Both the position numbers and the translations under genes were made by a program. Under the pieces are notes generated by a model that did not search any database, was not told the origin of the DNA, and saw only the letters and a program-made list of their open reading frames with translations. Of a DNA stretch of 64,000 bases, positions 27,991 through 54,782 are shown in pieces. This stretch comes from Spartinivicinus ruber. Lineage in GTDB: Bacteria > Pseudomonadota > Gammaproteobacteria > Pseudomonadales > Zooshikellaceae. Location: positions 1,415,501-1,479,500 of the forward strand of contig NZ_CP048878.1 of NCBI RefSeq assembly GCF_011009015.1, given 5' to 3'. The first letter of the stretch is position 1, and each line of letters begins with the position of its first letter.

Positions 27991-28015
27991 GTGACTAATT
28001 GGCTAGGAGAGTACA

Positions 28016-29500: not shown

Positions 29501-29519
29501 AAATATAGCGTTATTTAGT

Positions 29520-29559: not shown

Positions 29560-29587
29560 GCAACTGCTAAATCTGCAGGAATGTATT

Positions 29588-33029: not shown

Positions 33030-33083
33030 TTCTGCTAGGATAAATTAAATAGAAATAATGAATATAGGTAAGGTATTAAACTT

Positions 33084-35714: not shown

Positions 35715-35771
35715 ATTTTACCTCTACTTCAGTCTAATTACCCTGCATTAGCAGGGTAGTTGTAGCCAAAG

Positions 35772-35877
35772 CGAATGGTTTTTAGGGGCGGCCGTCCAGC
35801 GATGAAACTTCATGAGTTTATGTTTTTATAAATGATTGGGGTGAGTTGCGACGACAACAAACCCTAAAAATCATTCG
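35772..35877. repeat. Long-range inverted repeat upstream of the sigma-54 activator
   Basis: Arms 35772-35787 (CGAATGGTTTTTAGGG) and 35862-35877 match as inverted copies at 15 of 16 bases, with 74 bases between. The right arm ends 36 bases before the regulator start. It may be a degenerate insertion element or a pair of regulator sites; nothing in the spacer looks like a gene. Confidence 0.5.
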
Positions 35878-35913
35878 AGAAGGGTATAGAATCAAATATT
35901 TTATTTATGAGGT

Positions 35914-38088: not shown

Positions 38089-38664
38089 CTCCCTAAATAT
38101 TCAACAAAGATTAGTTGTTTATAAAAGTATAGCAATAAACCTTTCCCTGGGGGGGTATTCTGAGTTTAAAGTTGTTCTTGTGGTTTATAGAGGTAGGCTC
38201 TGCTTTGAGATGGTTTTCACTGTGCCATCGTTTTATCCCAAGAGGCTGTCGCAAAAGGTTATGAGCTAAGCAAAGACAAGGCAAAAATCGGAGAAAAAGA
38301 GGAGTTTATACTCAATAAATGAGCACTTTGAGTTGATTTTTAACACAGCATTTGCAAACGCAGTAGTTTTGCGACAGCCCCCTCTGGAAGAGGGTATTAT
38401 AATTACTTTAAAACCACCGCAATTAAAGTTGCTGTCACTAGTTTTGCAGTAGCAAACTGTCAGCACTGTTGATTCATACGACGGGTCTTTTTTAGTTAAG
38501 AATCGGTTTTCATTAGACGACAGCAGCTTTGGAAAAAGGTGACAGGCTATTCTATATTGTTAAGTGAGCGAAGTGCTTGTATCAGTAACTCTGAAGATGC
38601 AGGTTGCAGATGAGGGACTTTGTTATGTTGTAAAGTTAAGCTGTAAATTCAGAGGTGTACTCAT
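38089..38664. other. 576-base gap with a MITE-like element
   Basis: There is no supported gene. The gap contains the 136-base inverted-repeat element at 38244-38379 and a small hairpin CCCTCT-GGA-AGAGGG (38380-38394). The remaining sequence before the protease gene should hold its promoter, which I could not pinpoint. Confidence 0.5.
38244..38379. mobile_element. 136-bp MITE-like element with 13-bp terminal inverted repeats
   Basis: GGCTGTCGCAAAA (38244-38256) and its exact inverse TTTTGCGACAGCC (38367-38379) bound a non-coding, AT-rich body with an internal ACTCAA/TTGAGT inversion. A further copy of the terminus lies at 37644-37656. This is the form of a non-autonomous transposon derivative. 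I cannot name the parent IS, and no clean target duplication is visible. Confidence 0.7.
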
Positions 38665-41361
38665 ATGGTCGCGAAAAGAATTTATTTTCTCTGTAGACCG
38701 TTAACTCTTCTGATCTGCACATTATTTTTATTATTGTCAATTGATATTGCTTGGAGTGCCCCTCCTTATTTCCAGCAGGGTAAAATAGCCAAGTATCCTT
38801 CTTTTGGTACCCCCCGCCGTACCAGCACTACACCCCACATGTCGCAGAACCATATTTTGATAGAGCTAGGAAAAGGGGTTGATGAATCGAAGTTTCTTGA
38901 GCGAGCTAGAGGCCAAGGGCTTCGTAAAATAGGGCGGGTATATGGTAGTCGTTGGTTGGCAATGGCTATTCCTGTCGCTATGACACCTAGAGGAGCAGCG
39001 GCTGCTGCTAGAGGGTTACCTGGCGTTGTAAGATCAACTCCTGACTTGATGGTGGAGGCCTACCATCACCTTTCGCCGGCGACTCCACCTTATGTTGATG
39101 ATCCCTACTATATATTTGACGACAACCCCAGTACAAAACCTTGCAATCCATGCACGGCTGAGGAGCTTATTGACCAATGGAATCTTTTTCGGGTTGACGC
39201 GGAGAATGGTTGGAACACTGAAACAGGTGGTGTTGATGGGAAAGGCAATGAGATTGTTATTGCCATAATTGATAGTGGCATTGATTTGGATCATGACGAC
39301 CTGGCAGATAATATCTGGCACAACCCTGGTGAAGTGTTGAACGGAATAGATGATGATGGCAATGGTTTCGTGGATGACCTGTATGGTATGGACTTTGTAG
39401 GGGCTGGTACAGGAAGCCTTTTTGATGACCCTTCATCTCAGGATGCTAATCCTGACATACCCGATGGTGGAATGTGGGTCCAGGATTTTAATGCCCCCTG
39501 GTGGTGGCGTTTTGATGGAGACCCTGCTTCAGGGGATGCCCTTGATAATAACGGTGACTTTTATATCGACCTGGGTGTTTTTCACGGAACGTTAGTGGCT
39601 GGTGTTGCTGCTGCGGCGACCAATAACATAAATCCGGCGACCAATACCTATGAAGGTTTTGCAGGTGCTTGTTGGAATTGCAAACTCATGGCCGTGCGTA
39701 TGATCGATGCCGAGGGTGGAGGGCTGATGTCCAATGCTGCCGCGGCTATTTACTATGCAGCTGATAACGGGGCGGATGTTATTAACGCCAGTTGGGGTGT
39801 CGATACAAATGGTCTTAACCCTGCTGATGTGGAGATTGTTCGTCAAGCTATCGAGTATGCTGTGGGAAAAGGCGTCATTGTTGTTGCAGCAACAGGTAAT
39901 TCAGGAGCCGCTGGAATTGCTTTTCCTGCGGTGATGGCTGAGGTTATCGCCATTGGCTCCTCTAACTGGGTGGATGATAAGTCACAATTTTCCAGTTATG
40001 CGCATGCCCTCGAAATTCCGGATGATGGAGTTGATAACGATGGCAATGGTTGGGTTGACGATGTAGTGGATGTTGTTGCGCCAGGTGAGTTTATCTGGAA
40101 CAGCACAGTTATTAGCGCTTATGAAGCGTTTCTTCTTAATGGTTGGGATTGGTTTTGCTGTGCTGATAACCCAGCCCCGAGTGCCTGGTTTCCGGGGGAG
40201 GATGCTTATACTCGATCAGACGGTACCTCTTTTTCTACACCGTTAGTAGCCGGGTACATTGGAGTATTGCTTTCAGCCAATTGTGATGCATCAGCTAATG
40301 AGGTGCGCCAGGCAATTAGAGATAACGCCCTGGATGTAGGACCAACTGGTTATGATAATTATACAGGGTATGGCCGACTGCAGTTTGTCGTACCAATCAA
40401 CCTGGGGACGGGAAACTGTGGTGGCGATGGAAGTGGCGAAAACCAGTCACCAACAGCAAATGCAGGCCCTGATCAACAGGTGATTGATGTAGGAAAACCC
40501 GGTGAGCAAGTTACTTTGAGTGGAAGTTACTCTGTAGACCCTGATGGCACTATTGTTGAGTATGTGTGGAAAGAAAATGGCGCTATTGTTGCCAACGGTA
40601 AAACACCAACAATCACCCTTGGTGTTGGAATGCATGATCTGACCCTGACGGTGAAGGATGATAATAATGCCACGGACTCAGATACCGTGCGTATTGAGGT
40701 TTGTAAGAAAAGCTGCACCAGCTCTGGTAACGAGAGCCCAGTTGCCCAGGATGACACATATAATCTTGCTTCAGCTAGCGACACCCTCACGATTAATGTG
40801 CCAGGTGTGCTTAATAATGATAGTGATCCAAATGGCGATCCGCTAACAGCGCAATTGGTAGGCGGACCAGCTAATGCCCAAACGTTTACTTTTAACCCAG
40901 ATGGTAGTTTCAGCTACACCCACGATGGTGGCGTCACCACCAATGATAGCTTTACTTATCAAGCATCAGATGGTGTCAATCAAAGTGAAATAGCTACTGT
41001 TACCCTTACTATTGGGGGTGGAAATGCTCACTCAATGTATATGGCAAACGTCAAGTTTGAACAGAAGGGGCGAGGACTTAATGTAACTGTCACCGTGCGT
41101 TATGACTCTGATGCTGATGGTATTTCTGAGAACAGTGATGCAGGGGTTGGAAAGGCGCTTGTGTACGGCACACTTTGTTCTTTGAGCTTTGGTGACTGTC
41201 ATTTTGTTAACATGCCCATTGGTACAGGTGGAAATGGGCAGGCCACCTATAAACTCTTTGATGCTGTGGGAGAATACGAATACCGCTGGACGGATATAGT
41301 GCACGAGATTTATAACTGGAATCCTGATCTAGACATTTCAAACCCTGCTGTGAGTCCGTAA
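38665..41361 (+). CDS. Secreted S8 (subtilisin-family) serine protease with PKD and cadherin-like domains
   Basis: An 898-residue exported protease. A signal peptide ends near AWSA (residue 32). A propeptide-like region follows (about 60-135). The catalytic domain has Asp203 (IIDSGIDLDHDD), His307 (FHGTLVAG) and Ser522 (GTSFSTP). Asp/Asn-rich inserts (DDDGNGFVDD, DNDGNGWVDD) resemble calcium sites. A PKD domain spans about 593-682 (PTANAGPDQQ, SVDPDGTIVEYVW), a cadherin-like domain about 689-788 (VLNNDSDPNGDPL), and a C-terminal domain of about 105 residues is unassigned. It is a likely extracellular degradative enzyme. It is a single gene bounded by MITE-containing DNA. Confidence 0.92.
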   Translation: MVAKRIYFLCRPLTLLICTLFLLLSIDIAWSAPPYFQQGKIAKYPSFGTPRRTSTTPHMSQNHILIELGKGVDESKFLERARGQGLRKIGRVYGSRWLAMAIPVAMTPRGAAAAARGLPGVVRSTPDLMVEAYHHLSPATPPYVDDPYYIFDDNPSTKPCNPCTAEELIDQWNLFRVDAENGWNTETGGVDGKGNEIVIAIIDSGIDLDHDDLADNIWHNPGEVLNGIDDDGNGFVDDLYGMDFVGAGTGSLFDDPSSQDANPDIPDGGMWVQDFNAPWWWRFDGDPASGDALDNNGDFYIDLGVFHGTLVAGVAAAATNNINPATNTYEGFAGACWNCKLMAVRMIDAEGGGLMSNAAAAIYYAADNGADVINASWGVDTNGLNPADVEIVRQAIEYAVGKGVIVVAATGNSGAAGIAFPAVMAEVIAIGSSNWVDDKSQFSSYAHALEIPDDGVDNDGNGWVDDVVDVVAPGEFIWNSTVISAYEAFLLNGWDWFCCADNPAPSAWFPGEDAYTRSDGTSFSTPLVAGYIGVLLSANCDASANEVRQAIRDNALDVGPTGYDNYTGYGRLQFVVPINLGTGNCGGDGSGENQSPTANAGPDQQVIDVGKPGEQVTLSGSYSVDPDGTIVEYVWKENGAIVANGKTPTITLGVGMHDLTLTVKDDNNATDSDTVRIEVCKKSCTSSGNESPVAQDDTYNLASASDTLTINVPGVLNNDSDPNGDPLTAQLVGGPANAQTFTFNPDGSFSYTHDGGVTTNDSFTYQASDGVNQSEIATVTLTIGGGNAHSMYMANVKFEQKGRGLNVTVTVRYDSDADGISENSDAGVGKALVYGTLCSLSFGDCHFVNMPIGTGGNGQATYKLFDAVGEYEYRWTDIVHEIYNWNPDLDISNPAVSP

Positions 41362-41515
41362 ATTGATGGGAATTGAAAACCTAAGCCTGGTGGTTAGAAA
41401 ATACTACTCATTTGGTGTTTATATGGATTTAAATCCCATTCATGTTAAATTGGCAATGAGTTAGTGGAGTTAGAGTGCTATTTATTTGATGGTAATATTT
41501 ACATGGAGATATTGA

Positions 41516-41911
41516 ATGAATATTTGGATTTTAAGTGCAGGTATCTTGGGAATTTTGACTTCATTGGTGCATATTTTTGCTGGCCAGATCGACCCTGTAA
41601 GACCTTTTCTTAATTCAGAACTAGCTGATATCCCCAAAGCAACGCTATTAGCTTGTTGGCATATGGTGTCTTTGATTTTAGTTATTTCTTCAGGCGTATT
41701 TACTTACGTTGGGTGGATGAATGCTGATTATATGGTAATGGTAGTATTAGGCCTTTCAATAACCTACGTAACTTTTGCTGCTGTTTTTATCTTTGTAGGG
41801 TGGTACTTTTTTAGGTATCACGGACTCATCAAACTTCCACAGTGGGTATTATTACTTCCTATTGGTATCTTAGGTTGTATAGGTTCAGTGTCAGTTGACT
41901 TCATTCATTAG
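41516..41911 (+). CDS. Small four-helix membrane protein, unknown
   Basis: A 131-residue hydrophobic protein that I do not recognise. About four membrane segments are visible: ILSAGILGILTSLVHIFAG, ACWHMVSLILVISSGVFTYV, MVVLGLSITYVTFAAVFIFV and WVLLLPIGILGCIGSVSV. Histidines sit in the first and second segments (LVHIF, CWHMV). GGAGAT precedes the ATG by seven bases. It is followed 27 bases later by another small membrane protein, probably in one transcript. Confidence 0.7.
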   Translation: MNIWILSAGILGILTSLVHIFAGQIDPVRPFLNSELADIPKATLLACWHMVSLILVISSGVFTYVGWMNADYMVMVVLGLSITYVTFAAVFIFVGWYFFRYHGLIKLPQWVLLLPIGILGCIGSVSVDFIH

Positions 41912-41938
41912 TCGTTATGGGTAATCGAGAATCAAGTG

Positions 41939-42373
41939 ATGAATAGAAAGGGAGTGTGGGCTTTGGTTGCTGCTGCAATCATATCTGTAGCAACTGCAGT
42001 TGCTCATTTATCATGTATCTTTATTGGACCATCATGTTATCGAACTCAAATGGTGCTGCCAGAAATTGTACAGTCAACAGTTGATGGTACCTTGGTAGCA
42101 CCAGTAAGTACAATTGTAGTTTCTTTGTTGTTTATTGCTTGTGGTTTTTTTGCTTTATCAGGTGCTGGTATTATAAGAAAACTACCATTTCTTCATTTGG
42201 GCTTAATGTGTATTTCTGCTTTATGTGTTTTGCGAGGGGTTAGCACCATTCCCTTATCCTTCCTTTTTACAGAAATGGTAAGTACTTTTAGTCTATCTGC
42301 TGGTGTGATTTGGCTTTTAACTGGTATGCTATTTATGTACGGTTATTTTTGTGTACGGTGTGTGGATTCATAA
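41939..42373 (+). CDS. Small four-helix membrane protein, unknown
   Basis: A 144-residue membrane protein with about four hydrophobic segments (VWALVAAAIISVATAVAHLS, TIVVSLLFIACGFFALSGAG, LGLMCISALCVLRGVSTI, LSAGVIWLLTGMLFMYGYF). It shares with its upstream neighbour a histidine late in the first helix (TAVAHLS versus TSLVHIF), so the two may be distant paralogues or partners. ATG 41939 is chosen; a GTG codon directly before it is equally possible. No function is assigned. Confidence 0.65.
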   Translation: MNRKGVWALVAAAIISVATAVAHLSCIFIGPSCYRTQMVLPEIVQSTVDGTLVAPVSTIVVSLLFIACGFFALSGAGIIRKLPFLHLGLMCISALCVLRGVSTIPLSFLFTEMVSTFSLSAGVIWLLTGMLFMYGYFCVRCVDS

Positions 42374-42471
42374 TCGAATGAAAGCTGATACTTATTCATC
42401 AGATAAAGTATATTCTTTGTCTAGGCATACGCGACATTTAGAGTCTAGTTAAATCATTCAAGTGGAAAAAT

Positions 42472-42489
42472 ATGCAATAATTATTGCAT
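42472..42489. promoter_or_regulatory. 18-base perfect palindrome upstream of the MotAB/helicase operon
   Basis: ATGCAATAA (42472-42480) is followed directly by TTATTGCAT (42481-42489). A gapless palindrome of this length, 253 bases before the first gene, looks like an operator for a dimeric regulator. No regulator is encoded next to it. Confidence 0.5.
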
Positions 42490-42528
42490 GTTGTTGAAAA
42501 ATTAAAAATTGTTATTAGAAGTGCCCTT

Positions 42529-42551
42529 TAATTAATTTGATAAATTAATTA
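42529..42551. promoter_or_regulatory. Second inverted repeat upstream of the MotAB/helicase operon
   Basis: TAATTAATTT (42529-42538) and AAATTAATTA (42542-42551) are exact inversions around GAT. All pairs except the loop are A-T, so chance is more likely than for the first palindrome, but the two lie only 40 bases apart. Confidence 0.35.
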
Positions 42552-42741
42552 TTGAAGGCTAGATAAGCAGATTTAGTTTTATTGTTGATTAAAGTGATAC
42601 TGGCTTTAGTAATCTAAAGTATATACACAACCGGTAGTGTTAATTCTATAAGAGTGTTTCTGTGTGCCACTTCACAGCAAATAGGTTTGCAGTATAGCAT
42701 GATACACATCCCAAAAAGGCGGTATAAAGGTAAATGATCCT

Positions 42742-43851
42742 TTGATAGAGCACTCTTTAAAAAAATCTAATCTCCTTATTACCCGAAACCACGAAGTAGA
42801 TCTTTCAAAAGCAATTTATTCAACGAGTTTATCATCTGCTTCTATAGATGATGAAACACAGCTGTTTTATATCACCATTGATAAAGTTTTATATCAGCAC
42901 CCTGTAGAAGTAATAGAGAAAGTTTTGCATGCCAATGGGTTTTCCTTAAATTTGGAAAACATTTTGGCATGTATGGATGATTTTAAAATTGGTACATCGG
43001 TGCAGCTGGATAATGAGTTTTCAAAAAAAGGGGAACCTGTCAGCTTTATCCACTGTATTCAGTTTCGGCTACCGCAGAAATCATCAGTAGGACCAACCCT
43101 TAGTAAGTTCTATGAAGAAATTGAGTCCTATGAGTCAATAATTGCTGACTTAAAAGATAGCCAGACAAGTAAGGGAACTTTTGCAAAACGAGAGGATGAA
43201 AGCAGGCAAAAAATTCAGGCGCTTGAAGCGGAAAATAGATCGCTAAAAATGCAACTGAGTTTGCTGCAAAGCCAGCTAGATAATGCAGTTAAGTTAGTTG
43301 AAAAAGCGAACAAAACACTGGAAAGTCAGAATTATCTGCCTTCCAATGTCCTACGGGCGGAAGTGCGTGAAATTAATATTGAAGACCGTATGGTTATAGT
43401 TAAGTCTGGCAAGACGACAATAAACTTACCCTTGTTTATGTGTGATATATTACCTGAACCTGGTGATTGTTGTTTGGTTCATGTAGAACAAGGAAATACC
43501 TTAGGTTGTTTCTTTTTCAATAAACAACGAAGACCTTTGCAGCCGCAGTTGGCTAAAGTTATTTTAGTAAAAAATAACTTGTGTAAAATTCGTGATGAAA
43601 ATAGAAATACCTGGCTGATACAGGCAAAAAATCCTGTTGAATATAATTTTTTTAGAACCCTTAAAAATGGCGATCATCTATTGATTTATTTGTTGGATGG
43701 TAAGCCATTACGATTTGAATCATTATTACGCCCAAATATTAAGTCTTACGCAGATAGCGTTCAAGAATCGATACAAAAGTTTCAAATAGAACGGTCAGAA
43801 AAGATGCCACCACAAAGTGGGGATAAAGACCAAATGGGTGAAGATAACTAA
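42742..43851 (+). CDS. Coiled-coil protein of a MotAB/helicase operon, unknown family
   Basis: A 369-residue soluble protein that I do not recognise. Residues 1-115 look globular. A coiled coil runs from about 118 to 196 (KFYEEIESYESIIADLK, then RQKIQALEAENRSLKMQ and LLQSQLDNAVKLVEKA). A beta-rich region of about 130 residues follows (EVREINIEDRMVIVKSGKTT), possibly of SH3/OB type. The tail is polar. There is no membrane helix. It starts at TTG 42742 with AAGG about 11 bases upstream; no ATG fits. It is the first gene of a four-gene set with 11-, 12- and 15-base gaps, so it is probably a dedicated partner of the MotA/MotB-like pair. Confidence 0.75.
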   Translation: MIEHSLKKSNLLITRNHEVDLSKAIYSTSLSSASIDDETQLFYITIDKVLYQHPVEVIEKVLHANGFSLNLENILACMDDFKIGTSVQLDNEFSKKGEPVSFIHCIQFRLPQKSSVGPTLSKFYEEIESYESIIADLKDSQTSKGTFAKREDESRQKIQALEAENRSLKMQLSLLQSQLDNAVKLVEKANKTLESQNYLPSNVLRAEVREINIEDRMVIVKSGKTTINLPLFMCDILPEPGDCCLVHVEQGNTLGCFFFNKQRRPLQPQLAKVILVKNNLCKIRDENRNTWLIQAKNPVEYNFFRTLKNGDHLLIYLLDGKPLRFESLLRPNIKSYADSVQESIQKFQIERSEKMPPQSGDKDQMGEDN

Positions 43852-43862
43852 GGCTAAGAGTA

Positions 43863-44708
43863 ATGGAAGGACTAAAGCTAAAAAAATATTTGCATACCAC
43901 AAATAAAAAGTTTGACCCCTTTGCGTTGATCATTGGCTTTGGGGGATTTGTTGCTGTGGGTTATGCCTTGGGCCTGAAAGAAGATATTAATACCTTTTTG
44001 GATTTACGGTCTTTATTGATTGTAATTTGTGGTACTTTTGCCAGTATTTTATTTCAGTTTGACTTTAGGTCTTGTGCTTCCAGTGTCAAGCTGGTACTTG
44101 GCTCATTTTTTGGCACCCCTGGCAGGAAAGTTAACAATACGTTGATTGAACTCGATCGGGCGATTATCGGTAATGGAAAATTAACCGAACTGCGTGAAGG
44201 TGAAAATATCAACGGTGAACTTTTAAATGACATTATTTACATGCACAAGCAGGGGTTATTTTTTGAGGAGATTGATGAGTTTGTCACCTCAAGGATACGT
44301 GATGAAATTTTAAAGCGTAAAGTTTCCGTTGATATACTGCGCCGGGCGGCAATTATTGCTCCCGCACTGGGGCTTTTTGGAACGGTGATCGGACTTATCG
44401 GCGTATTAAGGTCACTGAATGACCCCAGTGAAATAGGTCCCTCAATGTCGTTGGCGTTAATGACTACTGCCTATGGTGCAGGTTTAGGCTCTATTGTATT
44501 TACGCCGTTATCCGGACGTTTAGAGCATCATAATATTATTTATTTGGCTGCACATGAGCAGCTTTTAAATAAAATTGGTATTTTAATAAAACGGGAAGAA
44601 AACAGTATAGACTCTCAGTTTTTATCAGAAACTGAGTTTAATCAAGATGCAGAGTACAACACAGCGTTTGACTCGCAAGCTGAAACCTATTCTGAAGATA
44701 GCATATAG
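43863..44708 (+). CDS. MotA/TolQ/ExbB-type proton-channel subunit
   Basis: A 281-residue inner-membrane protein of the MotA superfamily, which forms ion channels with MotB-like partners. Four membrane segments are visible at about 19-37, 50-65, 162-182 and 194-215. A large cytoplasmic loop lies between the second and third, as in MotA. The third and fourth segments carry the family signature APALGLFGTVIGLIG (Pro167) and MTTAYGAGLGS. The C-terminal tail after residue 220 is short and acidic. Described ZorA proteins instead carry a long helical tail. It is followed 12 bases later by a MotB-like gene and by no flagellar genes. Confidence 0.9.
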   Translation: MEGLKLKKYLHTTNKKFDPFALIIGFGGFVAVGYALGLKEDINTFLDLRSLLIVICGTFASILFQFDFRSCASSVKLVLGSFFGTPGRKVNNTLIELDRAIIGNGKLTELREGENINGELLNDIIYMHKQGLFFEEIDEFVTSRIRDEILKRKVSVDILRRAAIIAPALGLFGTVIGLIGVLRSLNDPSEIGPSMSLALMTTAYGAGLGSIVFTPLSGRLEHHNIIYLAAHEQLLNKIGILIKREENSIDSQFLSETEFNQDAEYNTAFDSQAETYSEDSI

Positions 44709-44720
44709 GGGTCAGACTCA

Positions 44721-45389
44721 ATGAGAATGTCTGAATTAGACCTTAACCTTGAGCAACAGGATGATAGCGAAAGCAAGACGGCTTTCTACATCAGTTTCAG
44801 TGATTTGATGGTGATGTTGGGGGTATTTTTTGTCATGTTGCTTTCAATTAGTAAAGTAGATGTTGGCTCGTTTGAAAAAGTAAAAACGAGTGTTACTGGA
44901 AATACAGCAGGCACATTGGTTGAGCTGAGCAATCAGTTAGCCAGTATTGTTGAAAATAATGCTGGTGTCTCGGGCGTGTCTGTACGTATGGCTGAAGATG
45001 GTATTCGGTTGGTTTTAGATACGCGGGCACTTTTTGAAACAGGAAGTGCCAATTTAAAGCCGCAAGCATTGGAGTCACTAGAGCCAATACTCCTTAGTAT
45101 ATTAGCAACCAAATACACGATTGATGTTGAAGGGCACACGGATGATGCGCCTTTACATCATTACTATCGGATGAATAACGAATTTATGTTGGAGACTAAC
45201 TGGTCTTTAAGTGGTAGGCGTGCTAGTAGTGTTATTCACTTTTTATTGCAGTTTGGTTTTACTGACGAACGGTTAAGACTAGTGGGGTATGCTAGCACCC
45301 GTCCGATTAATAGCACTATTGGAAAAAGTGGCACTGCATTAGAGGCCGCTAGAGCGAATAATCGCCGGGTATCATTACTTATTAAATAA
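44721..45389 (+). CDS. MotB/OmpA-family peptidoglycan-binding channel subunit
   Basis: A 222-residue partner of the MotA-like protein. One membrane helix (about 24-43, FSDLMVMLGVFFVMLLSISK) contains Asp28, the position of the ion-binding aspartate of MotB. The periplasmic part is an OmpA-type peptidoglycan-binding domain with the signatures ALFETGSANLKP, VEGHTDDAPL, NWSLSGRRASSVIHFL, GYASTRPI and RANNRRVSLLI. It presumably anchors the ion-driven unit to the cell wall. It lies in tight order between the MotA-like gene and the helicase. Confidence 0.9.
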   Translation: MRMSELDLNLEQQDDSESKTAFYISFSDLMVMLGVFFVMLLSISKVDVGSFEKVKTSVTGNTAGTLVELSNQLASIVENNAGVSGVSVRMAEDGIRLVLDTRALFETGSANLKPQALESLEPILLSILATKYTIDVEGHTDDAPLHHYYRMNNEFMLETNWSLSGRRASSVIHFLLQFGFTDERLRLVGYASTRPINSTIGKSGTALEAARANNRRVSLLIK

Positions 45390-45404
45390 AGTGTGTATTA
45401 ATCA

Positions 45405-48400
45405 ATGCGGTTTTTAACTAACAAAAATATAGAGCAGGGTGTTTCTGCAAAGTATGATCGTAAAAATCGCTTTGTAGTAAAACGCTATAAGACCAAAGCT
45501 GGTTTCTTTATCTACTTGCTTACAAATAGCAGTAATAATGATCGTTTAGTTATTCCGCATCATTTAATGGATCGTTTTCGAGCCTTTCTTGTGAAAGTGC
45601 TTGAACGAATGGAAGGAATGCCCGTTCAAGATATTGAAATTGATGATAAATTAGCCTTTAAGGATGCTGAATATTATCGATTTGAATATTCTACAAATAC
45701 GCTGGAGCATTTAACCATTGTTGACCTGAATAATGCAGGTCGTTTTAATATTTATCGGGAAGCGGTTAATACGGTTATTGAGCTACTTTACGACCCTTGG
45801 TTGGACCACCCCAATGGGGTTTTTGACCGGATTATTGATTATCACAAGCTATTCCAGTTTACATTTAATGAAGGCAGTGAAAGTATCACCAGCGGATTAT
45901 CAGTTCGTCGCAATACACTGATTGAAATGGGGGATTACATTCCTCTGGAAAAAAATGCGCAACAGCATGTTATTGCTATTACAACTGATCCTGATTCATT
46001 CGACAAAAGTGTTAAAGGTAGCGCCAGTAAAAAAACGACTGATGCTAAAAATCTTGAGTTTAAAAGAAAGCTGGGTGAGCGTAACACGGAACAGAACCTC
46101 ACGATAGATTACGACACTTTATTCGGGTCATCATCCAGCAAAAAAGCCAAGCGCCCGGTTAAACCTAAATCAGCTGGGCCTTCTGCCAAAATAACCAATA
46201 CAAGTTGTCCATTACCTTTGCTGGCAGGTAATATTAAGTCTCATACTGCAAAGGTTTATAAATGTGAATTAACCTCAGAAGATGCCTCTGCACTTAGGAA
46301 AGGTGTGCTTGCTGATCGAGATGCTGAGCATTTGCTAGGGTTTGAAATATTCACCGCCATATTCAAGAAAAATGGAAAGCTGAAAAGCTTCAGCTTTCCC
46401 CTCTATTATATGAATGTAAAAGTAGAGGAATCTGGTCGGTTTTTACATATTTACCCGCCGGAAAATGGTGATGTATATCTAAACCATCTGAGTTTAGCCG
46501 TTTTCATCGAAAATTTTTCAAACTCCAAAAAAAGTGATCCGTTAGAATCATTTTTTAACACGCTATTATCTCAAAAAATAGAGATTGACAAAAAACTACA
46601 TAATATCTCTATTCGTCGCCAACTGCCTTATAGTGAAGATGTATTTCGACAAACAAGAGAAATACTTATTGGTAAGAAAGGTGAGAATGGTAAAGGGGGG
46701 ATCATTGAAAACCTGAACATCATTGGTATCGAGTGTGATTTAGGCTCCGTGGTGCTCTATCGAGCTGATCGAAACCCTTCGCCCTTAACCAGGGCATTAG
46801 ATCTGGATTTAAAGAAAATTCAGCGTACTGCTCATGAATACCCGCATAAATTTTATTCATCCTTGTTAGGGAAATTTTTAAACCCGGAATTAAAAACGAA
46901 TGCCGTTAATGTTGATAAATTTTGTTCTACACCACTTAGCCCTGGCACATTAACAAAGTCATCTAAGGCATTACTACAGAACTTAAATAATCATGATCTA
47001 GTACTGTTGGAGGGCCCACCTGGCACAGGTAAAACCTTTACCATTCGAAACTTATTAATTCATTGTTTAAATTCTAATAAAAAGTTGCTGATTGTAAGTG
47101 ATCAGCAAGCAGCGATTCATGCACTTAATGAGAAAATTCAAGAATACTTAGTCGGTAAAGATGCTACAGCGCTGACTGCTGCGAGCACAATAAACTTATG
47201 GAAGAGTGCAATTAAGGTTGTTGATGAAGTTCCTTCAAGTACAGATGATTTGGGGTTGTGGATAAACAAGTTGTCCCAAATGCTAGTGATGGATTTATCT
47301 CGAGAGCAGGACTGGCCAAATGATAATCCGAAAATACTAGAAGCTATACAACAGCTGGATGTAGAGTATCAGGAAACCAAAGAAAGTATTGCAAGAGTGC
47401 TTGATAAAAGCTTTGATTTGGTTAATCGAAAAAACCAAATCTTACCAAAAATTCATCACCCTAGTAATCACGATGATATATCAGACCTCACTGCATTTTT
47501 GGTGTTTATTGGCTCGGGAGATTTATCCAAAGCGAATAAGTCAAATGATTATCGCAAGCATTTGTTATTAGCAAAGCAGTTTATTGAATGTAGGCAAGAA
47601 ATGCTAAACAGTTACTATGCTACTTGCTATCCGGATTTTGAGTTTAGAAGGGGAACTATAGAAAAACTGGAGTCCATTGTTTCAGATCATATTAATATTT
47701 TGCAGTTACTTATTAAGGAAAAGCCTAGAAAGGAGGATGAATTTTATAATCTATTTCAAACTGAGGTAGAGTCTTATATATGCTCTTTTTTAGTGGACCA
47801 TTGGACCAAATGCTTTAGTGTGCTTACTAATAGTTCTATTACCAGAAAGGTTATGGCTACCTTTATACATCCTTGTCTTGATGTATGGAAGTCACTTTTA
47901 AAACAACTGCTATTCCATCAAGAATTCATTGCTATCATTAAAAAATGTGGAGACCCTGACAAACTACTACGCCAATTTGATCAAATCCACCATTTTCTTG
48001 ATCCTAACCAGGTTGAAGTTGAATATTGTTTGGCATTTGATATCTGCCAGTACCTTTCAAGTGGTTATAGGGAAGCTTCAATAAACTATCATCTTGAGCA
48101 ATTGGTAAAAATTCAACAAAAGCGAGATATGCTGATAAAAGAAATGTGTCTGCTGAAGTTAACCGGCATATCTAAACAGACAATTGCGAATCAGGAAAGT
48201 GGAACGAATAAAGCGACTAAAATTATCAATCTTTTGGAATCTTTGAAATCGTGTAATTCCATTGATATCGGTAGTGGCGCATCCATTTTAAAAGACCTTC
48301 AAGATGCGCTATGGGATAGCTTCCCCATATGGATTTGTCGCAAGCAAGCAGTTCCCTTTTTGTTTCCTTCTCAAGAAAACATGATTGACTTGGTAGTCGT

Positions 48401-49691
48401 CGATGAAGCAGGACAGTGCAGGGTTGATGATGCGTTACCTCTGTTATATCGAGCGAAAAAGCTAATGGTGGTGGGTGATGACAAACAAACTGTGTTTAAT
48501 AAAAACTCAATTATAGATGACTACCTGTTTCGTGAAGCAGAATTAGAGGAACATTTACGTAGCATTCAGGCACGTGGGGTTAAAGGGGGAGGATCAAACC
48601 TATTTGAACTGGTTAAGTCTATCAAGCAAGGAGGGGTGTTACTGGACGAACATTATCGGTGTCCTCCATCAATAATCTCCTACTCAAATGAATATGTTTA
48701 TAATAATGACTTGAAAATTATGCAGTGGCAGTTGCCTAATTCAAATCCTTCTGTTGTCGTAGATTATAGTGAAAAAGTTGCTACCAGCAATAAAAAAACC
48801 ACCAGTTGGAAATATAAAGGAATCGAGACGGAAATGGTTAATCGATTCTTTAATTTTATTGTGAAAACAATAAAGAAAATAGAAAGAGAAACTAAACAGC
48901 CTATTAATATGGAAACTGATGTGGCTATTTGCTATTTTCTTTTGAAAAATGAGCAATATATAAAAGACAATAAATCAAAGTTTCTAACAAAGCTTGATCG
49001 AGGCCGTGATGTATTAGATGGCGCTGGTGCAGCCCTTCAGGGTAAAGAAAGAGATTATATATTTTACTATTGGGATATTAGTAGTTCAAACTTGGCGGCA
49101 TTTAGGCAAGGAGATGATCCTGATAAAAGGAAGGGTGAACTCAATGTATTGATGAGCAGACCAAAGGTAAGAGCTTTCCACTACCTTCATAGAGATTTTG
49201 AAAAGTTAAATCATAATACTGCTACAATCACCAATTACTTGTGGGATACTTTTCGTTTACAAAATAAGAAAAGTACCAGGATTCGGTCTAATCATACCTA
49301 TGTTGGGGCTGATAGAAGAGCTGGGCATTCAATGATTTCTATTCTAGCCCATTTATGGAGTTGCCGCTCTATACCTGCTGGGAGTATCTATGACCCATTT
49401 TTTAATATTATCATTGGTAATCCAAAGCAAAAAGTGGACTTGATGTTGGTACCGAAAGCTGATTCAAAAATTATGTCACAAGAAAAATCTATCGCTGTGG
49501 TTGATTTGAGCGCTTTTAGCATGAGTGATAACCCGACAGATGATGTGGTGGATTATTATTTTCAGTTGCAAAGAGCGGTTCCACGCGTGGAACCAGTATT
49601 TACCTTTATACATGAAATAGCTGATGAGAGATCGGGCGCTTATCAGCAAGTTGAAAAGAAGATACTGGCAGAGGTACTGCATCGAAAATAA
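45405..49691 (+). CDS. Giant UPF1-like superfamily 1 helicase with possible C-terminal nuclease-like domain
   Basis: A 1428-residue cytosolic protein. The N-terminal half (1-530) has no recognised domain. The SF1 helicase core shows Walker A GPPGTGKT (537-544), Walker B DEAGQ (1000-1004) followed by VVGDDKQTVF, motif IV-like HYRCPPS (1083-1089), QGKERD (1212-1217) and motif VI LNVLMSRPK (1246-1254). A 450-residue insertion separates motifs I and II. The last 120 residues (KVDLMLVPK around 1345, IAVVDLSAF around 1367) have the strand pattern of restriction-like nucleases but lack a clear E-x-K. It is the last gene of the MotAB operon and converges with a lipoxygenase gene. Confidence 0.88.
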   Translation: MRFLTNKNIEQGVSAKYDRKNRFVVKRYKTKAGFFIYLLTNSSNNDRLVIPHHLMDRFRAFLVKVLERMEGMPVQDIEIDDKLAFKDAEYYRFEYSTNTLEHLTIVDLNNAGRFNIYREAVNTVIELLYDPWLDHPNGVFDRIIDYHKLFQFTFNEGSESITSGLSVRRNTLIEMGDYIPLEKNAQQHVIAITTDPDSFDKSVKGSASKKTTDAKNLEFKRKLGERNTEQNLTIDYDTLFGSSSSKKAKRPVKPKSAGPSAKITNTSCPLPLLAGNIKSHTAKVYKCELTSEDASALRKGVLADRDAEHLLGFEIFTAIFKKNGKLKSFSFPLYYMNVKVEESGRFLHIYPPENGDVYLNHLSLAVFIENFSNSKKSDPLESFFNTLLSQKIEIDKKLHNISIRRQLPYSEDVFRQTREILIGKKGENGKGGIIENLNIIGIECDLGSVVLYRADRNPSPLTRALDLDLKKIQRTAHEYPHKFYSSLLGKFLNPELKTNAVNVDKFCSTPLSPGTLTKSSKALLQNLNNHDLVLLEGPPGTGKTFTIRNLLIHCLNSNKKLLIVSDQQAAIHALNEKIQEYLVGKDATALTAASTINLWKSAIKVVDEVPSSTDDLGLWINKLSQMLVMDLSREQDWPNDNPKILEAIQQLDVEYQETKESIARVLDKSFDLVNRKNQILPKIHHPSNHDDISDLTAFLVFIGSGDLSKANKSNDYRKHLLLAKQFIECRQEMLNSYYATCYPDFEFRRGTIEKLESIVSDHINILQLLIKEKPRKEDEFYNLFQTEVESYICSFLVDHWTKCFSVLTNSSITRKVMATFIHPCLDVWKSLLKQLLFHQEFIAIIKKCGDPDKLLRQFDQIHHFLDPNQVEVEYCLAFDICQYLSSGYREASINYHLEQLVKIQQKRDMLIKEMCLLKLTGISKQTIANQESGTNKATKIINLLESLKSCNSIDIGSGASILKDLQDALWDSFPIWICRKQAVPFLFPSQENMIDLVVVDEAGQCRVDDALPLLYRAKKLMVVGDDKQTVFNKNSIIDDYLFREAELEEHLRSIQARGVKGGGSNLFELVKSIKQGGVLLDEHYRCPPSIISYSNEYVYNNDLKIMQWQLPNSNPSVVVDYSEKVATSNKKTTSWKYKGIETEMVNRFFNFIVKTIKKIERETKQPINMETDVAICYFLLKNEQYIKDNKSKFLTKLDRGRDVLDGAGAALQGKERDYIFYYWDISSSNLAAFRQGDDPDKRKGELNVLMSRPKVRAFHYLHRDFEKLNHNTATITNYLWDTFRLQNKKSTRIRSNHTYVGADRRAGHSMISILAHLWSCRSIPAGSIYDPFFNIIIGNPKQKVDLMLVPKADSKIMSQEKSIAVVDLSAFSMSDNPTDDVVDYYFQLQRAVPRVEPVFTFIHEIADERSGAYQQVEKKILAEVLHRK

Positions 49692-49694
49692 GCT

Positions 49695-51623
49695 TTAAAT
49701 ATTAATGCTTGTTGGTATCCGGCTGGGTAGTAAATAACCATAGGATAAATCAACATTAAATTTTTTATTGCGAGTCGTTATTGTTTGCAGCATTTCTTTT
49801 TCCAATTGCTTTAAGCTGTTTTGGAATTTGGGTAGGGGACCATTGGTTACTTTAGGATCTTTAAACCAATCCTTATAGGGAACATGGTTTTGTTTATATT
49901 CACCTAATGGACGATAATATACTGAGCCTAATGTATAAAGGACTGCCTGTTGCAAGAAAGCAAGTACCAATGGTGGCATGGCATTTAACCAGTCTTTCTT
50001 GGTAACCTGGTCATTAATTATTTTTTCCCAAACAGCTCCCGTAATGACAGGAGCATAAGTCATCAGCGAGCGTTGGGGAAAGTTGACAGCGGCATGTTGG
50101 GCGCTTGCAGTGAAGATTACCATTGTCAACACTTCGATTAATGTGGCTTTATTTGTAATGGCTGGGATATTGTGAATTTTTCCTGACTCAGTGACTTCGT
50201 TATACCAGTCTTTTAATTCTAAATCTTTAATAACACTTTCATCAGACTCATAATATATATCAATATAATCCTGAACCCAGGTTTGGATAGTTTGCCAAAC
50301 CTGGGTAGCATCATCACGGTAAGGAAAATACGGCAAGACCTTATCGTCATTAATATTACGGGCTTTTAATTGGTTGTGTAGCATAGCTGCTTGAAAATCA
50401 AAATTTAATCTGTTTTCAGCGGCGGCTTGCTGAGTAGAACTTATGTTGCCGGCAAAAATTTGGTCAATAGGGCCATGTGGCGCAATTAACGAGGACTCTG
50501 CCTGGCTATTAATAAATAAAGTGCCTTCAAAATGCGGAACTAATAATTTAAAAAGTGGATGTCCTTCATTCAAGGTTCTATGGGTTGCTACCGCAAAGGC
50601 TTCTATAACTAAATGGGTTCTGCTTAAGTGGACAAACAGTTCATGATAGTTGCCATCAGCATAATTAACGATTGTTTTTGCCAGCTGCCAACGATAATCC
50701 GTTGTGGTATCCGGTTTCGGAGTAATAATGGGGGATTGGGTTGAATTCTGGTGGCACTGAATGGCAATCGGTTTTAGCGTTTTTCTGTCACGAGAAAGTA
50801 AAAATGCTGCAATTGGTGCATAGAGATATTTTTCTCTACCCATAAAGCTACCAGTATTTTTTGCTAGAGTGGCCAGCTCTTTATAATTACAGATAAAAAT
50901 ACGCTGGTCTTGTAATGCCTTTGATAAAGAGTCATCTTGCTCAAATAAGCTGTCCAAGTTTGCTTTATCCAGTGGGAAATTGCTGGGTAATGTTGAGATG
51001 CTTTCTATCAACATAGGGTTTGGGCCAGCAACTCGTAACTCTGCAAATACTTTATTTGATTCAATAAGGCTGGCTACTTTTGGTAATTTAATGGTTTTAA
51101 AGAGGGTCTGGTATTCCTCAAAATTACCAGACTTAACCCATTCTTTTTGTATTTCTGGACCAATATTGTGAATAAAAGTGATGATGCGGCGTAATCCCTT
51201 TATGCCAGCACCTTTGGTAAAAGTATCAGATAGTTCATCAAGATTTAAGAAAATATTTACCTCTTTGCCTTGTTGTAAGTCTTTAAGCGCATTATCGGCT
51301 TTTCCGCAAAGCTGTGTCAGCTTATGAAGCTCTTTCTCTATGTCACGATATAGGCTTGGAGGTTTATTTAATGACTTAAGTATTGCTATGGTATTTCCAG
51401 CTAAATCAATTATGACAGGAGTTAATAAGGTAAGCCATTCAAAAGTGGGGGTATCGTTGTATGGTACGCGTTTAGATAAGGGCACACCATTTAGATTGGG
51501 AAAATCATCTCTCCATTGATATTGTGCCATTTTTGAAAAAAAGAGCTTATAAGGCAGTAGCGCCATAGTCACCATAAATCCAATGTTAGCGGCTAATGGT
51601 AAGGCAAGTATTTTATAAAACAT
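49695..51623 (-). CDS. Bacterial lipoxygenase (iron dioxygenase of polyunsaturated fatty acids)
   Basis: A 642-residue lipoxygenase, which adds O2 to 1,4-pentadiene fatty acids. All five iron ligands are visible: His332 and His337 in HLSRTH, His510 and Asn514 in QHAAVN, and the carboxylate of the C-terminal Ile642. The 173-residue distance between the second and third ligands equals that of Pseudomonas aeruginosa LoxA (382 to 555). Helper motifs EAFAVATHRTLNEGHPLFKLL and PHFEGTLFIN match the family. A hydrophobic segment near residues 6-29 may be a signal/anchor or a lid helix. The stop lies three bases from the helicase stop. A CRP-type site lies about 300 bases upstream. Confidence 0.93.
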   Translation of the reverse strand: MFYKILALPLAANIGFMVTMALLPYKLFFSKMAQYQWRDDFPNLNGVPLSKRVPYNDTPTFEWLTLLTPVIIDLAGNTIAILKSLNKPPSLYRDIEKELHKLTQLCGKADNALKDLQQGKEVNIFLNLDELSDTFTKGAGIKGLRRIITFIHNIGPEIQKEWVKSGNFEEYQTLFKTIKLPKVASLIESNKVFAELRVAGPNPMLIESISTLPSNFPLDKANLDSLFEQDDSLSKALQDQRIFICNYKELATLAKNTGSFMGREKYLYAPIAAFLLSRDRKTLKPIAIQCHQNSTQSPIITPKPDTTTDYRWQLAKTIVNYADGNYHELFVHLSRTHLVIEAFAVATHRTLNEGHPLFKLLVPHFEGTLFINSQAESSLIAPHGPIDQIFAGNISSTQQAAAENRLNFDFQAAMLHNQLKARNINDDKVLPYFPYRDDATQVWQTIQTWVQDYIDIYYESDESVIKDLELKDWYNEVTESGKIHNIPAITNKATLIEVLTMVIFTASAQHAAVNFPQRSLMTYAPVITGAVWEKIINDQVTKKDWLNAMPPLVLAFLQQAVLYTLGSVYYRPLGEYKQNHVPYKDWFKDPKVTNGPLPKFQNSLKQLEKEMLQTITTRNKKFNVDLSYGYLLPSRIPTSINI

Positions 51624-52200
51624 AAGGTTACCATGTTCAGTTAAAATAATTATAAATATAATATATGCCTAACTTGGGGTATAGCTGGGTATTTTTCGTT
51701 TAGTCTATGATGATACTTTAAGTTAGATAATTATTATTCAATATGCAAGAAGGCTGAGAAAGTTTAAACCTGTAAAAACAAGTTAAGAATAAATATTTTT
51801 ATCACCATAACAAATATTTTAGGTTTAAGAAGGAAGTGTGTTTGTGTGTTTTTTGGGAAAGTAAATGAATTAAAATGATGACGTTACGCTTTTGTGATTA
51901 TATGCGCAAAAGTAGCTCGGCATATTATGTGATATGCGTCACATAACGATTTTGATTAATACGTTGGATTAACATGTTACCGCTAGTTTTTTGACACCTT
52001 CGAGTGTGCTTTCTAGATAGTGATAAACAGTATAGATAAGTGCAAGCTTATTCTACTTTTTATTCTATTGCATCACTTAAATAAATAGAAACCAGATTGT
52101 CTTCTGCTTCTTGCTCTTAAATATTTGTTACATTAATCAATCAGTTTTTAGTGAGCTGTTGTTGTGATTTGATTGTTGCATGATAGAGGGAGTTGGAAGT
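51624..52200. other. 577-base divergent promoter region, lipoxygenase/hscC
   Basis: Non-coding and AT-rich. It contains a perfect CRP-type site (51925-51946) and, downstream toward hscC, a consensus -35 TTGACA at 51991-51996 with only a weak -10 (TAGATA near 52014). No ORF with family resemblance was found. Confidence 0.5.
51925..51946. promoter_or_regulatory. Perfect CRP/Vfr-type binding site
   Basis: TTATGTGA (51925-51932), TATGCG, TCACATAA (51939-51946): both half sites match the CRP core TGTGA-N6-TCACA with symmetric flanks. It is 302 bases from the lipoxygenase start and 254 bases from the hscC start, and could control either. Confidence 0.75.
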
Positions 52201-53898
52201 ATGAGTATCATCGGTATTGATTTGGGAACCACTAACAGCCTGGTATGTGTCTGGCAAGATGGCCAAGCTGTAATTATCCCGAATGTGTTGGGTGATGCTT
52301 TAACCCCATCAGTGGTGGGTTTGGATGATAGTGGGGAAATATTGGTGGGTAAAGCGGCTAAAGAGCGTTTGTATACCCACCCAGCAGTTACTGTCGAATT
52401 ATTCAAACGCTATATGGGGAGTGAAAAGGAATACCCGTTAGCTAATCATACTTTTAAACCACAGGATTTGGCGTCTTTTGTTTTACGCGCGCTTAAAGTA
52501 GATGTAGAAACTTATTTAGGTCACCCAATTACAGAAGCAATTATTAGTGTACCTGCCTATTTTAGTGAACATCAACGGCGTGCCACCCAGCTGGCGGGAC
52601 AGTTGGCGGGTTTAAAAGTAGAACGCCTGATCAGTGAGCCAACTGCTGCTGCACTGGCTTATGGGGTGGTTAACCCAACCGTTGAAAAGCATTACATGAT
52701 ATTTGATTTAGGTGGGGGAACATTTGATATATCAGTGTTGGAATTATTTGATGGTGTGATGGAGGTTAAAGCCAGCGCAGGCGATAACCATTTAGGTGGA
52801 GAAAACTTTCTTGATTTACTGGCTCAGCACTTTTGCCAGAAAGTGAATATTGATCAAGAAGCCTTAAGCCAGGCTGCTTATACTCATTTACGCAACCAGG
52901 TCAGTAAAGCCATACATCAGCTTGCTCGTGATTATCAAATTACTATTCAGTTTAGGAATAACAATGAGCAGGCATTATTGACCATTACCCGTGATGAATT
53001 TGAAAAACTCTGTGAACCATTAATTAATCGACTGCGGTTACCAGTAGAAAGAGCGCTTCGTGATGCCAAAATTAAACCTGCTGATGTGGATGAATTAATC
53101 CTGGTTGGTGGCGCAACTAGAATGCCATTAGTGCGTTCATTGGTCGCAAAATTGTTTGGACGTTTACCTAGCTGTCATTTAAATCCAGATCAGGTAGTCG
53201 CAATGGGGGCTGCGGTTCAGGCTGGGTTAAAGCAAAAGGATCTTGCATTAAGTGAAGTAGTAATGACCGATGTGTCTCCTTATTCTCTAGGCATAGAAAT
53301 CGTGTCGAGTCGAAGTGGGTATTATAATACTGGACTTTTTCAGCCTATTCTGGAGCGTAATACAGTTATACCCATTTCTCGGGTTGAGCGTTTTATTACT
53401 TCCTCTGATCAACAAACCCAAGTGAATATAAAAATTTATCAGGGTGAAAGCCGACGGGTGCAGGATAATATCAAATTAGGTAATTTGCTTGTTGATGTAC
53501 CAGCCAAACCTGCTGGTGAAGAGGCGGTAGATATTCGGTTTACCTATGATGTAAATGGCATTTTGGAAATAGAGGTAACGGTCGTATCAACTGGCCTACA
53601 AACCACTGCTGTAATTGAGGAATACCCTGGTCTTATAACCCAAGAAGAAATTGCTGTCAGGTTGGCTGCATTGTCTGATATTAAAATTCATCCAAGGGAT
53701 ACGATGGAGAATCGCTTATTAATGGCACGTGGCGAGCGACTTTATGAACAAGCGTTGGGAGAACAACGAGATTATATTGGTGAGCTGTTAACTGAGTTTG
53801 AAGGGGTATTAGCACATCAAGACACTAAAAAAATACGGCAGATAAATAGGGCTTTAAGCCAGTTATTTGATGAAGTAGAAACAGAGTTACATTCATGA
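52201..53898 (+). CDS. hscC: Hsp70-family chaperone HscC
   Basis: A 565-residue short Hsp70 resembling E. coli HscC (556). The nucleotide-binding domain has GIDLGTTNSLVCVWQDG, SVPAYFSEHQRRATQLAG, ISEPTAAALAYG, FDLGGGTFDISVLE and LVGGATRMPLV. The substrate-binding domain begins near TDVSPYSLGIEIV and the lid is truncated compared with DnaK. HscC-specific wording LFKRYMGSEKEYPL matches. I chose ATG 52201 (MSIIGIDLGTTNS), with GAGGGAG nine bases upstream, over ATG 52180. The stop overlaps the next gene by four bases, so it is coupled to a J-like partner, as hscC is to its J-protein gene in E. coli. Confidence 0.93.
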   Translation: MSIIGIDLGTTNSLVCVWQDGQAVIIPNVLGDALTPSVVGLDDSGEILVGKAAKERLYTHPAVTVELFKRYMGSEKEYPLANHTFKPQDLASFVLRALKVDVETYLGHPITEAIISVPAYFSEHQRRATQLAGQLAGLKVERLISEPTAAALAYGVVNPTVEKHYMIFDLGGGTFDISVLELFDGVMEVKASAGDNHLGGENFLDLLAQHFCQKVNIDQEALSQAAYTHLRNQVSKAIHQLARDYQITIQFRNNNEQALLTITRDEFEKLCEPLINRLRLPVERALRDAKIKPADVDELILVGGATRMPLVRSLVAKLFGRLPSCHLNPDQVVAMGAAVQAGLKQKDLALSEVVMTDVSPYSLGIEIVSSRSGYYNTGLFQPILERNTVIPISRVERFITSSDQQTQVNIKIYQGESRRVQDNIKLGNLLVDVPAKPAGEEAVDIRFTYDVNGILEIEVTVVSTGLQTTAVIEEYPGLITQEEIAVRLAALSDIKIHPRDTMENRLLMARGERLYEQALGEQRDYIGELLTEFEGVLAHQDTKKIRQINRALSQLFDEVETELHS

Positions 53899-54695
53899 TG
53901 AATTGTTGGAAAATTCTGGGTATTGACCCTACTGATGATCTTAAAAAGATCAAGAGTGCCTATGCCAGCAAACTGAAACAATTGGATATAGCGACACAGC
54001 AGGATTTGTTTGAAGGGCTTCGCAGTGCGCTTGAAGATGCAAGGGAGCAGGCTCAGTTAGCCCAACAAAATCTACCGTTGCGATTTGATAGCAGCAAGCA
54101 AAATTCTAAAGTACAGAACTCGTCGGTAACCCAGCTGGATGACTTTGTTATTCAGCTCGAAGTCTTATATGCAGATTTTCCGAGTCGAATTCAATTAGAT
54201 GAATGGAAGCAGTTGTTGGCTGATTTACCTGATTGGACTCTTGATAGAAAACAGACTATAAGTGATGTATTATTTGGCTTCCTATTAGAAAATTACTATT
54301 TGCCGCCAAAAATTTTACTTTATCTGGAGCAACAGTTTGCCTGGGATGAGCAGCAGCTACAGTTAATAAAGCGTTATAATGAAGCTGATGTGGAGAGGCT
54401 GTTTGCTTTAATGAAGCAAGCGTTGGGATTTGCCAGTTTTGAATTTTTACAAGAGTTGCCCAGCCAACTCTCAGACCGTTATCTAGAATTACGTTGGGCT
54501 GGACAACAGGCATTATTAAATAACCACCTTGATAAAGCCCTGCATTATTTATTAAAAGCTTATGAATTATATAATAAGGACCTTTATTTACTACGTTTGC
54601 TGGGTAATGCCTTTGAACGGGCTGGTCGTGCAGAAGAAGCATTTGACTATCACTATGCAGGCTTTGAGTTAGTAAAAGATGATTATGATTTTTAG
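53895..54695 (+). CDS. J-like partner of HscC lacking the HPD motif
   Basis: A 266-residue protein. The first 55 residues have the helices of a J domain (CWKILGIDPTDDLKKIKSAY, then DLFEGLRSALEDAREQAQL), but the loop that should carry HPD reads LDIATQQ. The remainder is helical and TPR-like near the C terminus (RYLELRWAGQQALLNNHLDK, ALHYLLKAYELYNKDLYLLR, LLGNAFERAGRAEEAF). It resembles E. coli DjlB/DjlC, the J proteins paired with HscC. Without HPD it may bind HscC but not stimulate its ATPase. Start ATG 53895 overlaps hscC by four bases. Confidence 0.8.
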   Translation: MMNCWKILGIDPTDDLKKIKSAYASKLKQLDIATQQDLFEGLRSALEDAREQAQLAQQNLPLRFDSSKQNSKVQNSSVTQLDDFVIQLEVLYADFPSRIQLDEWKQLLADLPDWTLDRKQTISDVLFGFLLENYYLPPKILLYLEQQFAWDEQQLQLIKRYNEADVERLFALMKQALGFASFEFLQELPSQLSDRYLELRWAGQQALLNNHLDKALHYLLKAYELYNKDLYLLRLLGNAFERAGRAEEAFDYHYAGFELVKDDYDF

Positions 54696-54739
54696 GCCCT
54701 GTTACCATTCTTGGCATTTAGAGTTGGAAACAAGGCCTA
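54693..54739. terminator. Imperfect hairpin between converging J-like and AAA ATPase genes
   Basis: TAGGCCCTGTTACC (54693-54706), starting on the J-like gene stop codon, and GGAAACAAGGCCTA (54726-54739) pair at 12 of 14 positions. A short T run (54750s) follows. It probably serves as a shared terminator. Confidence 0.45.
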
Positions 54740-54782
54740 GCAATCATTTTTGACGAGTATAGTGTTAGTTGTTCGTTAATAG

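Follow-up and report, generated by a model that had tools for sequence, protein, structure and literature searches.

A four-gene operon of Spartinivicinus ruber joining a PomA-type ion motor to an SF1 helicase, Zorya-like in logic

To our knowledge, Zorya is the sole system in which a MotAB-like motor serves a nucleic-acid effector. Its types I–III share a peptidoglycan-binding ion motor, ZorAB, accompanied by soluble nucleic-acid enzymes, which in type I include a helicase. The available sections of two studies describe an elongated ZorA tail, pathways for sodium or protons, and ZorCD, ZorE, or ZorFG as partners (PMC11890865; PMC8565338); those of a stator phylogeny treat ZorAB as a remote homologue and do not mention the term "helicase" (PMC12505986). 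Here, we analyzed a 64,000-nucleotide stretch of the Spartinivicinus ruber genome (6.69 Mb in 4 contigs), referred to as the window, in which a four-gene operon combines a MotAB-type motor with a giant superfamily 1 (SF1) helicase. An earlier reading of the bare sequence (the original prediction) had proposed it as a Zorya-like defence candidate. The operon is apparently undescribed so far, and no recognised description was found in the titles and abstract openings of the open-access literature searched. It represents a second case of a motor with a nucleic-acid effector, apparently of separate origin and with constant partners across phyla, and the four-gene cassette makes it testable whether membrane ion flow can be spent on nucleic-acid work.

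The four open reading frames (ORFs) lie on the + strand at window positions 42742–49691, separated by gaps of 11, 12, and 15 bases, exactly as originally given. The first gene, p1 (42742..43851), encodes 369 amino acids from a TTG start. It is followed by a MotA/PomA-type channel subunit (43863..44708, 281 amino acids; PF01618, E = 2.9e-19), a MotB-type subunit with the channel Asp28, a plug region, and an OmpA peptidoglycan-binding domain (44721..45389, 222 amino acids), and the giant UPF1-like SF1 helicase (45405..49691, 1428 amino acids; Pfam AAA_11). Both congeners, G001 and G002, carry all four genes with 82–90% protein identity. Selection on all four genes is strongly purifying, as dN/dS against the G001 orthologues amounted to 0.061 (p1), 0.034 (MotA), 0.052 (MotB), and 0.036 (helicase) at dS values of 1.4–2.6, which are near saturation. 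Judged from homology and gene order, the operon is real and conserved as one unit.

The four-gene set was found in 20 genomes, namely three of this genus, 15 of 58 from what we take to be the phylum Bdellovibrionota, and two Myxococcota. All four genes occur together in 18 of the 20, and a contig break lies inside the operon in the other two. The order p1-MotA-MotB-helicase on one strand was seen in 17/17 loci laid out, including the window, G001, and both Myxococcota; no further gene recurs beside the operon in these loci, apart from those of one syntenic clade. A DNA-pattern search for MotA in one genome per species (84,980 species, a set that may leave out this genus) yielded four stretches, all of this system: a Pseudobacteriovorax metagenome-assembled genome (MAG), an Oligoflexaceae MAG, and two Myxococcota MAGs. 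Each of these four genomes also encodes the helicase, 40–49% identical over the matched part. With a p1 profile, 15 of the 58 genomes from the phylum of Pseudobacteriovorax were positive, including both of its MAG genomes. MotA follows p1 in 15/15 of them; MotB was found in 14/15, and the fifteenth contig stops ~35 residues into MotB. The helicase occurs in 15/15 (13 near full length, one cut by a contig end, and one with a broken frame) and shares the contig of p1 in 13/15. In the remaining two it lies on a separate contig, and their contigs end within the operon; p1 of G758 and MotB of G762 are likewise cut by contig ends. The linkage of the four genes is far beyond chance. The original prediction would have fallen had homologues been unlinked in other genomes; since 13 of 15 are linked and the other two are split at contig ends, this objection fails.

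Outside these groups the operon is rare. In the sample of 377 Myxococcota genomes the centre genome alone was positive, the second carrier not having been drawn. Among 369 genomes of the class of S. ruber, its own genome gave the sole full-length match and two others gave partial ones; among 95 relatives, a p1 or long helicase match was restricted to this genus. No p1 was found on the plasmids or in the phages searched. In viral contigs, alignments of p1 and the helicase gave 129 and 93 stretches, none of which was confirmed, and DNA patterns of MotA and the helicase gave 0. A helicase query of near-identical orthologues returned 130 stretches, none confirmed, and a mixed SF1 alignment at least seven loci with partial SF1 matches. 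Plasmid matches comprised 15 records for MotA, 11 for MotB, and 24 for the helicase, the last covering 9–24% of the protein. Seven MotA/MotB regions were opened. Those of Octadecabacter, Granulicella, and Azospirillum ramasamyi were set aside as flagellar, the A. lipoferum p3 match adjoins ATP synthase genes, and three Burkholderiales records bear no annotation there. No MotA or MotB was detected by tblastn at the five plasmid helicase regions opened or at the seven genome loci with partial matches.

The motor subunits show the domain traits of flagellar stators (MotA_ExbB, MotB_plug/OmpA, and the Pro, Thr, and Asp channel residues). MotB matched Pfam OmpA (1.6e-14) and MotB_plug (5.8e-9), and its Asp28 is an aspartate in 19/19 homologues. 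In MotA, P167, T174, T201, and T202 are invariant in 20/20. A profile of MotA found MotA (8.4e-23) and PomA (2.9e-22) as best matches in the PDB, and flagellar PomA/MotA were closest in NCBIfam, too. The MotA family, the conserved Pro and Thr set, the MotB Asp and plug, and the OmpA domain are shared with PomAB/MotAB stators. The operon differs from these in its constant helicase and p1 partners and in its MotA family, which stands apart from seven other MotA proteins, none of them a ZorA, as a long-stemmed clade (100/100). Moreover, Pfam and NCBIfam scans of window neighbours revealed no flagellar family, which upholds the claim that flagellar genes are missing nearby for that part of the window ORFs covered by these scans. 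Three further MotAB-type pairs, named PomAB-, MotCD-, and MotAB-like by reading, lie elsewhere in the genome, so the operon pair is not the only stator of the cell.

The helicase matched Pfam AAA_11 (5.3e-14), and AAA_12 at 2.8e-5, below the cut-off of that family. K543 (Walker A), D1000/E1001 (DEAGQ), Q1028, Q1212, and G1213 are invariant in 20/20, and R1252 in the 19/19 homologues that reach this position. We take Q1028 to be the Gln of motif III, Q1212 and G1213 the QG of motif V, and R1252 the Arg of motif VI. By these residues, the SF1 trait set (Walker A, DExxQ, Gln, QG, and Arg) appears complete, and the effector is SF1 rather than Snf2, as had been predicted. Residue conservation and Pfam domains likewise bear out the MotA-like channel, the MotB-like subunit with Asp28, and the 1428-residue helicase. 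The two best NCBIfam families were anti-phage ProA (7.7e-20) and Hhe (8.2e-19). In PADLOC, MkoC (8.4e-28), PDC-S37, MkoA, and Hhe were matched, in 7/7 members tested; the best MkoC stretch aligned residues 991–1220 to 668–905 of 1136, so that the model was not matched as a whole. UPF1-like core motifs are therefore common to the window helicase and the MkoC/MkoA (Mokosh), Hhe, ProA, PDC-S37, and SF1-MTES helicases, but the matches cover parts of the core only, and the window helicase differs by its N-terminus.

There, residues 6–138 (45420..45818, + strand) are predicted to form a PUR nucleic-acid-binding domain (Pur-alpha repeat I-II) with two beta-beta-beta-beta-alpha repeats, the fold match being that of VIA-align 2 over the candidates of Foldseek. 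In contrast to Pur-alpha, the domain is fused to a helicase, is 8–13% identical, and gave no PUR family in the Pfam scan. At the other end, the C-terminal domain (residues 1290–1428; 49272..49688, + strand) contains D1345, D1367, Q1387, and R1390, which are invariant in the 18/18 homologues with sequence there. Three related SF1 helicases end in MTES_1575 and were found by an MTES search at 4e-27 to 4e-32; the same search gave no match in the window helicase or two homologues. An hhalign comparison of the C-terminal domain with MTES was weak (E = 0.062), and the Glu and His expected from the MTES motif were not seen. The domain is perhaps a degenerate MTES/PD-(D/E)xK-like fold with no recognised catalytic set; a C-terminal MTES nuclease was considered and dropped, as it was only hinted at. 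A related SF1 helicase with an MTES nuclease lies on an Acinetobacter plasmid (L034 1-8398) directly after BREX pglZ and brxL, and is possibly a BREX-linked SF1 helicase. Two helicase reading frames are broken, through either real decay or an assembly error: that of G764 (L135 4400-8658) and, close to its C-terminus, that of G730 (L092 12631-16545).

The p1 protein gave no Pfam family above cut-off and only weak coiled-coil matches. The predicted fold consists of an alpha/beta N-terminus, a coiled coil (helices 118–139 and 147–195), two OB-like beta barrels (residues 203–258 and 267–327), and a C-terminal helix. The earlier description as a soluble coiled-coil protein was therefore correct as to the coiled coil and incomplete as to the rest. 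The nine best Foldseek matches of the model in the PDB were all the proteasomal ATPase Mpa, although superposition of the whole models was poor (TM 0.15). In the model, the coiled coil and the barrels follow one another in the same order as the coiled coil and tandem OB domains of Mpa/ARC; unlike these, p1 has no AAA match in its 369 amino acids and carries the additional N-terminal alpha/beta domain. With moderate confidence, the model suggests that p1 resembles Mpa minus its ATPase, and we propose it as a putative cytosolic adaptor, that is, a candidate coupling part between motor and helicase. A REase_II match in p1 (41 residues, E = 8e-4) was isolated and was dropped.

The comparison with Zorya was made for each component. 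No PADLOC (2023) or NCBIfam (2026) system matches the whole operon, and window p1 and helicase matched no ZorC–ZorG model at E<=1, in agreement with the claim that the first gene has no Zorya counterpart. Seven MotA members matched no PADLOC family at E<=0.1. Flagellar MotA controls gave none either, and PADLOC presumably includes ZorA models, so the missing long tail is the stronger test for ZorA. Window MotA has 281 amino acids, of which ~60 (by reading) follow the last membrane helix, and its 19 homologues have 257–287; the long ZorA tail is absent, as was originally noted. Window MotB scored 8e-17 with ZorB models. As the flagellar-type MotB proteins of the same cell score as well (PomB-like, 5e-18; MotD-like, 5.6e-19), this match is not specific and was discarded as evidence for Zorya. 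Zorya proteins were absent among the fold matches listed, which carries no weight. In summary of these traits, the operon differs from Zorya in its PomA-like MotA, its SF1 helicase with a predicted PUR domain in place of Snf2, and p1; by the traits tested it is not a Zorya member, and its likeness lies in the logic of motor plus enzyme. This part of the original prediction stands, in the sense of shared logic rather than demonstrated descent, since flagellar MotA/PomA are what the MotA profile retrieves from the PDB, and the ZorB match is unspecific. The stator looks like one recruited separately from that of Zorya.

DNA homology to G001 and G002 spans 42620–49675, that is, a 122-base leader and the operon, ending 16 bases early. 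The conserved 5' leader (42620..42741, + strand), whose start is the left edge of the blastn homology, is probably the promoter region. In G001/G002 the copy lies between two genes whose homologues sit ~140 bases apart in the window genome, and the window site between conserved flanks (38127–52186) holds other genes in the congeners. The shared block, the empty counterpart site, and the other genes at the window site show that the block was relocated as a unit. Presence is also patchy among close relatives: p1 occurs in G762 and was not found in G759-761, and occurs in G739 and not in G740. On an RpoB tree, operon presence needs six changes, a number as low in 32/500 shuffles. The input of 30 genomes comprised 15 with the operon, 12 without (hand-chosen from 43), G730, G732, and the window genome; 27 had RpoB, the exceptions being G731, G735, and G772. 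The concatenated four-gene tree pairs the two Myxococcota (99%) and groups this genus with G729 (98%); the RpoB tree instead places G729 with G763 (100/99). These sister genomes have no common neighbour of the operon in the stretches compared. The helicase tree agrees with the concatenated tree (98, 83), and p1, MotA, and MotB singly give no support for the genus with G729; the trees were midpoint-rooted, and for the broken helicases of G730 and G764 only the larger piece was used. Most simply, the operon would have been inherited within Bdellovibrionota, being lost or relocated in places, and would have passed from there to a gammaproteobacterium and to Myxococcota, a direction that we infer because the operon tree is unrooted. 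Pieces of a short repeat, ~40–190 bases each, occur dispersed through this genome and those of its sisters (L062 ~12590-13930 and 17670-17800; window 35763–35890) and may help gene blocks to move.

These observations leave us with about an even chance for a self-contained, horizontally moving four-gene machine that would most likely halt invading DNA, from phages or plasmids, at the membrane by a Zorya-like logic. MotB would hold the peptidoglycan while ion flow turns the MotA ring; the PomA-type Thr174/Thr201/Thr202 set suggests Na+ as driving ion. Built like the coiled-coil and OB ring of Mpa/ARC, p1 could dock beneath MotA and transmit to the helicase either torque or a conformational signal. 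The PUR domain may grip single-stranded DNA or RNA beside the envelope for the SF1 core to unwind or translocate, and incoming DNA would be stopped by mechanical unwinding or recruitment of host nucleases, not by a nuclease of its own. Defence is plausible in view of the patchy occurrence, the movement as a unit, and the defence-type helicase core, and in one form or the other we consider it somewhat favoured. Its second form would be abortive infection: on detecting foreign nucleic acid, the helicase together with p1 would open the MotAB channel, and the resulting ion leak would itself kill or stall the cell. The invariant channel Asp and Thr residues and the lack of a nuclease site in the helicase C-terminus fit such a leak, an idea earlier put forward for ZorAB in the accessible part of one study (PMC8565338). 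We regard it as improbable, since all helicase motifs are conserved, so that unwinding is probably needed as well, and Zorya structural work, in the portion available, describes rotation after channel opening (PMC11890865).

Several findings weigh against defence. On the RpoB tree of the 27 chosen genomes, all six members of clade G764-769 carry the operon, the upstream genes are shared by four of them, and by this synteny the operon keeps its chromosomal place long-term there. No virus- or plasmid-borne copy was seen in the plasmid, phage, and viral-contig searches. Among the 25 of 70 PADLOC families listed, none matched more than two of 104 flanking proteins from 15 loci, in a survey from which the flanks of the window, G002, G732, G731, and G762 were excluded. 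The synteny, the lack of a recurrent defence neighbour, and the strong purifying selection would suit a conserved cellular machine of certain bacteria, in which an envelope motor powered by ions acts on the nucleic acid of the cell itself by pulling, export, import, or untangling. Examples would be DNA uptake or the handling of chromosomes or transcripts at the membrane. Such a role is rather doubtful given the patchiness in very close relatives (G762 against G759-761), the relocation within the genus, and the single positive among the 377 Myxococcota, which is unusual for a core process. Whatever the purpose, it is possible, and a little less doubtful, that the operon is a new type of ion-powered nucleic-acid machine, evolved separately from Zorya out of a PomA-type stator, in which a sodium-turned MotA ring would act through an Mpa-like p1 ring on a wall-held PUR-SF1 helicase and so spend membrane energy directly on reeling, unwinding, or expelling DNA or RNA. 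The affinity of MotA to flagellar PomA/MotA could instead point to an accessory stator for flagellar or gliding motility, with a helicase gene that its operon had simply acquired. This is very improbable: the genome has its three other stator-type pairs, the MotA family stands as a clade of its own, and the helicase accompanies p1 in every positive genome of the sampled phylum. Assignment of the pair to a flagellar motor, which would have counted against the original prediction, is thus disfavoured.

As to the surroundings, a type VI secretion cluster (VasJ/ImpA, VipB, TssF, TssG, and a ClpB-like ATPase) lies left of the operon, occupying 25790–37563 together with a regulator, sigma-54-type by reading, that ends at 37563; the operon sits in a variable stretch just to the right. 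No defence island was seen among the window ORFs, not every one of which was scanned. In the flank survey, one protein scored strongly with Snf2-type models including ZorD, DpdE being higher. It is probably, by reading, the 914-amino-acid protein of G757 encoded immediately before p1 in the same orientation (L130 15568-18309). On the right, a lipoxygenase gene (49695–51623, − strand; PF00305, 4.3e-65) has no DNA match in the congeners; lipoxygenases are unusual in bacteria. It is followed at 52180–60182 by genes for a short DnaK-like protein (572 amino acids), a 266-amino-acid protein whose start is weakly J-like, and, on the opposite strand, a 1799-amino-acid AAA protein, which are kept in both congeners as far as compared (to ~56.8 kb).

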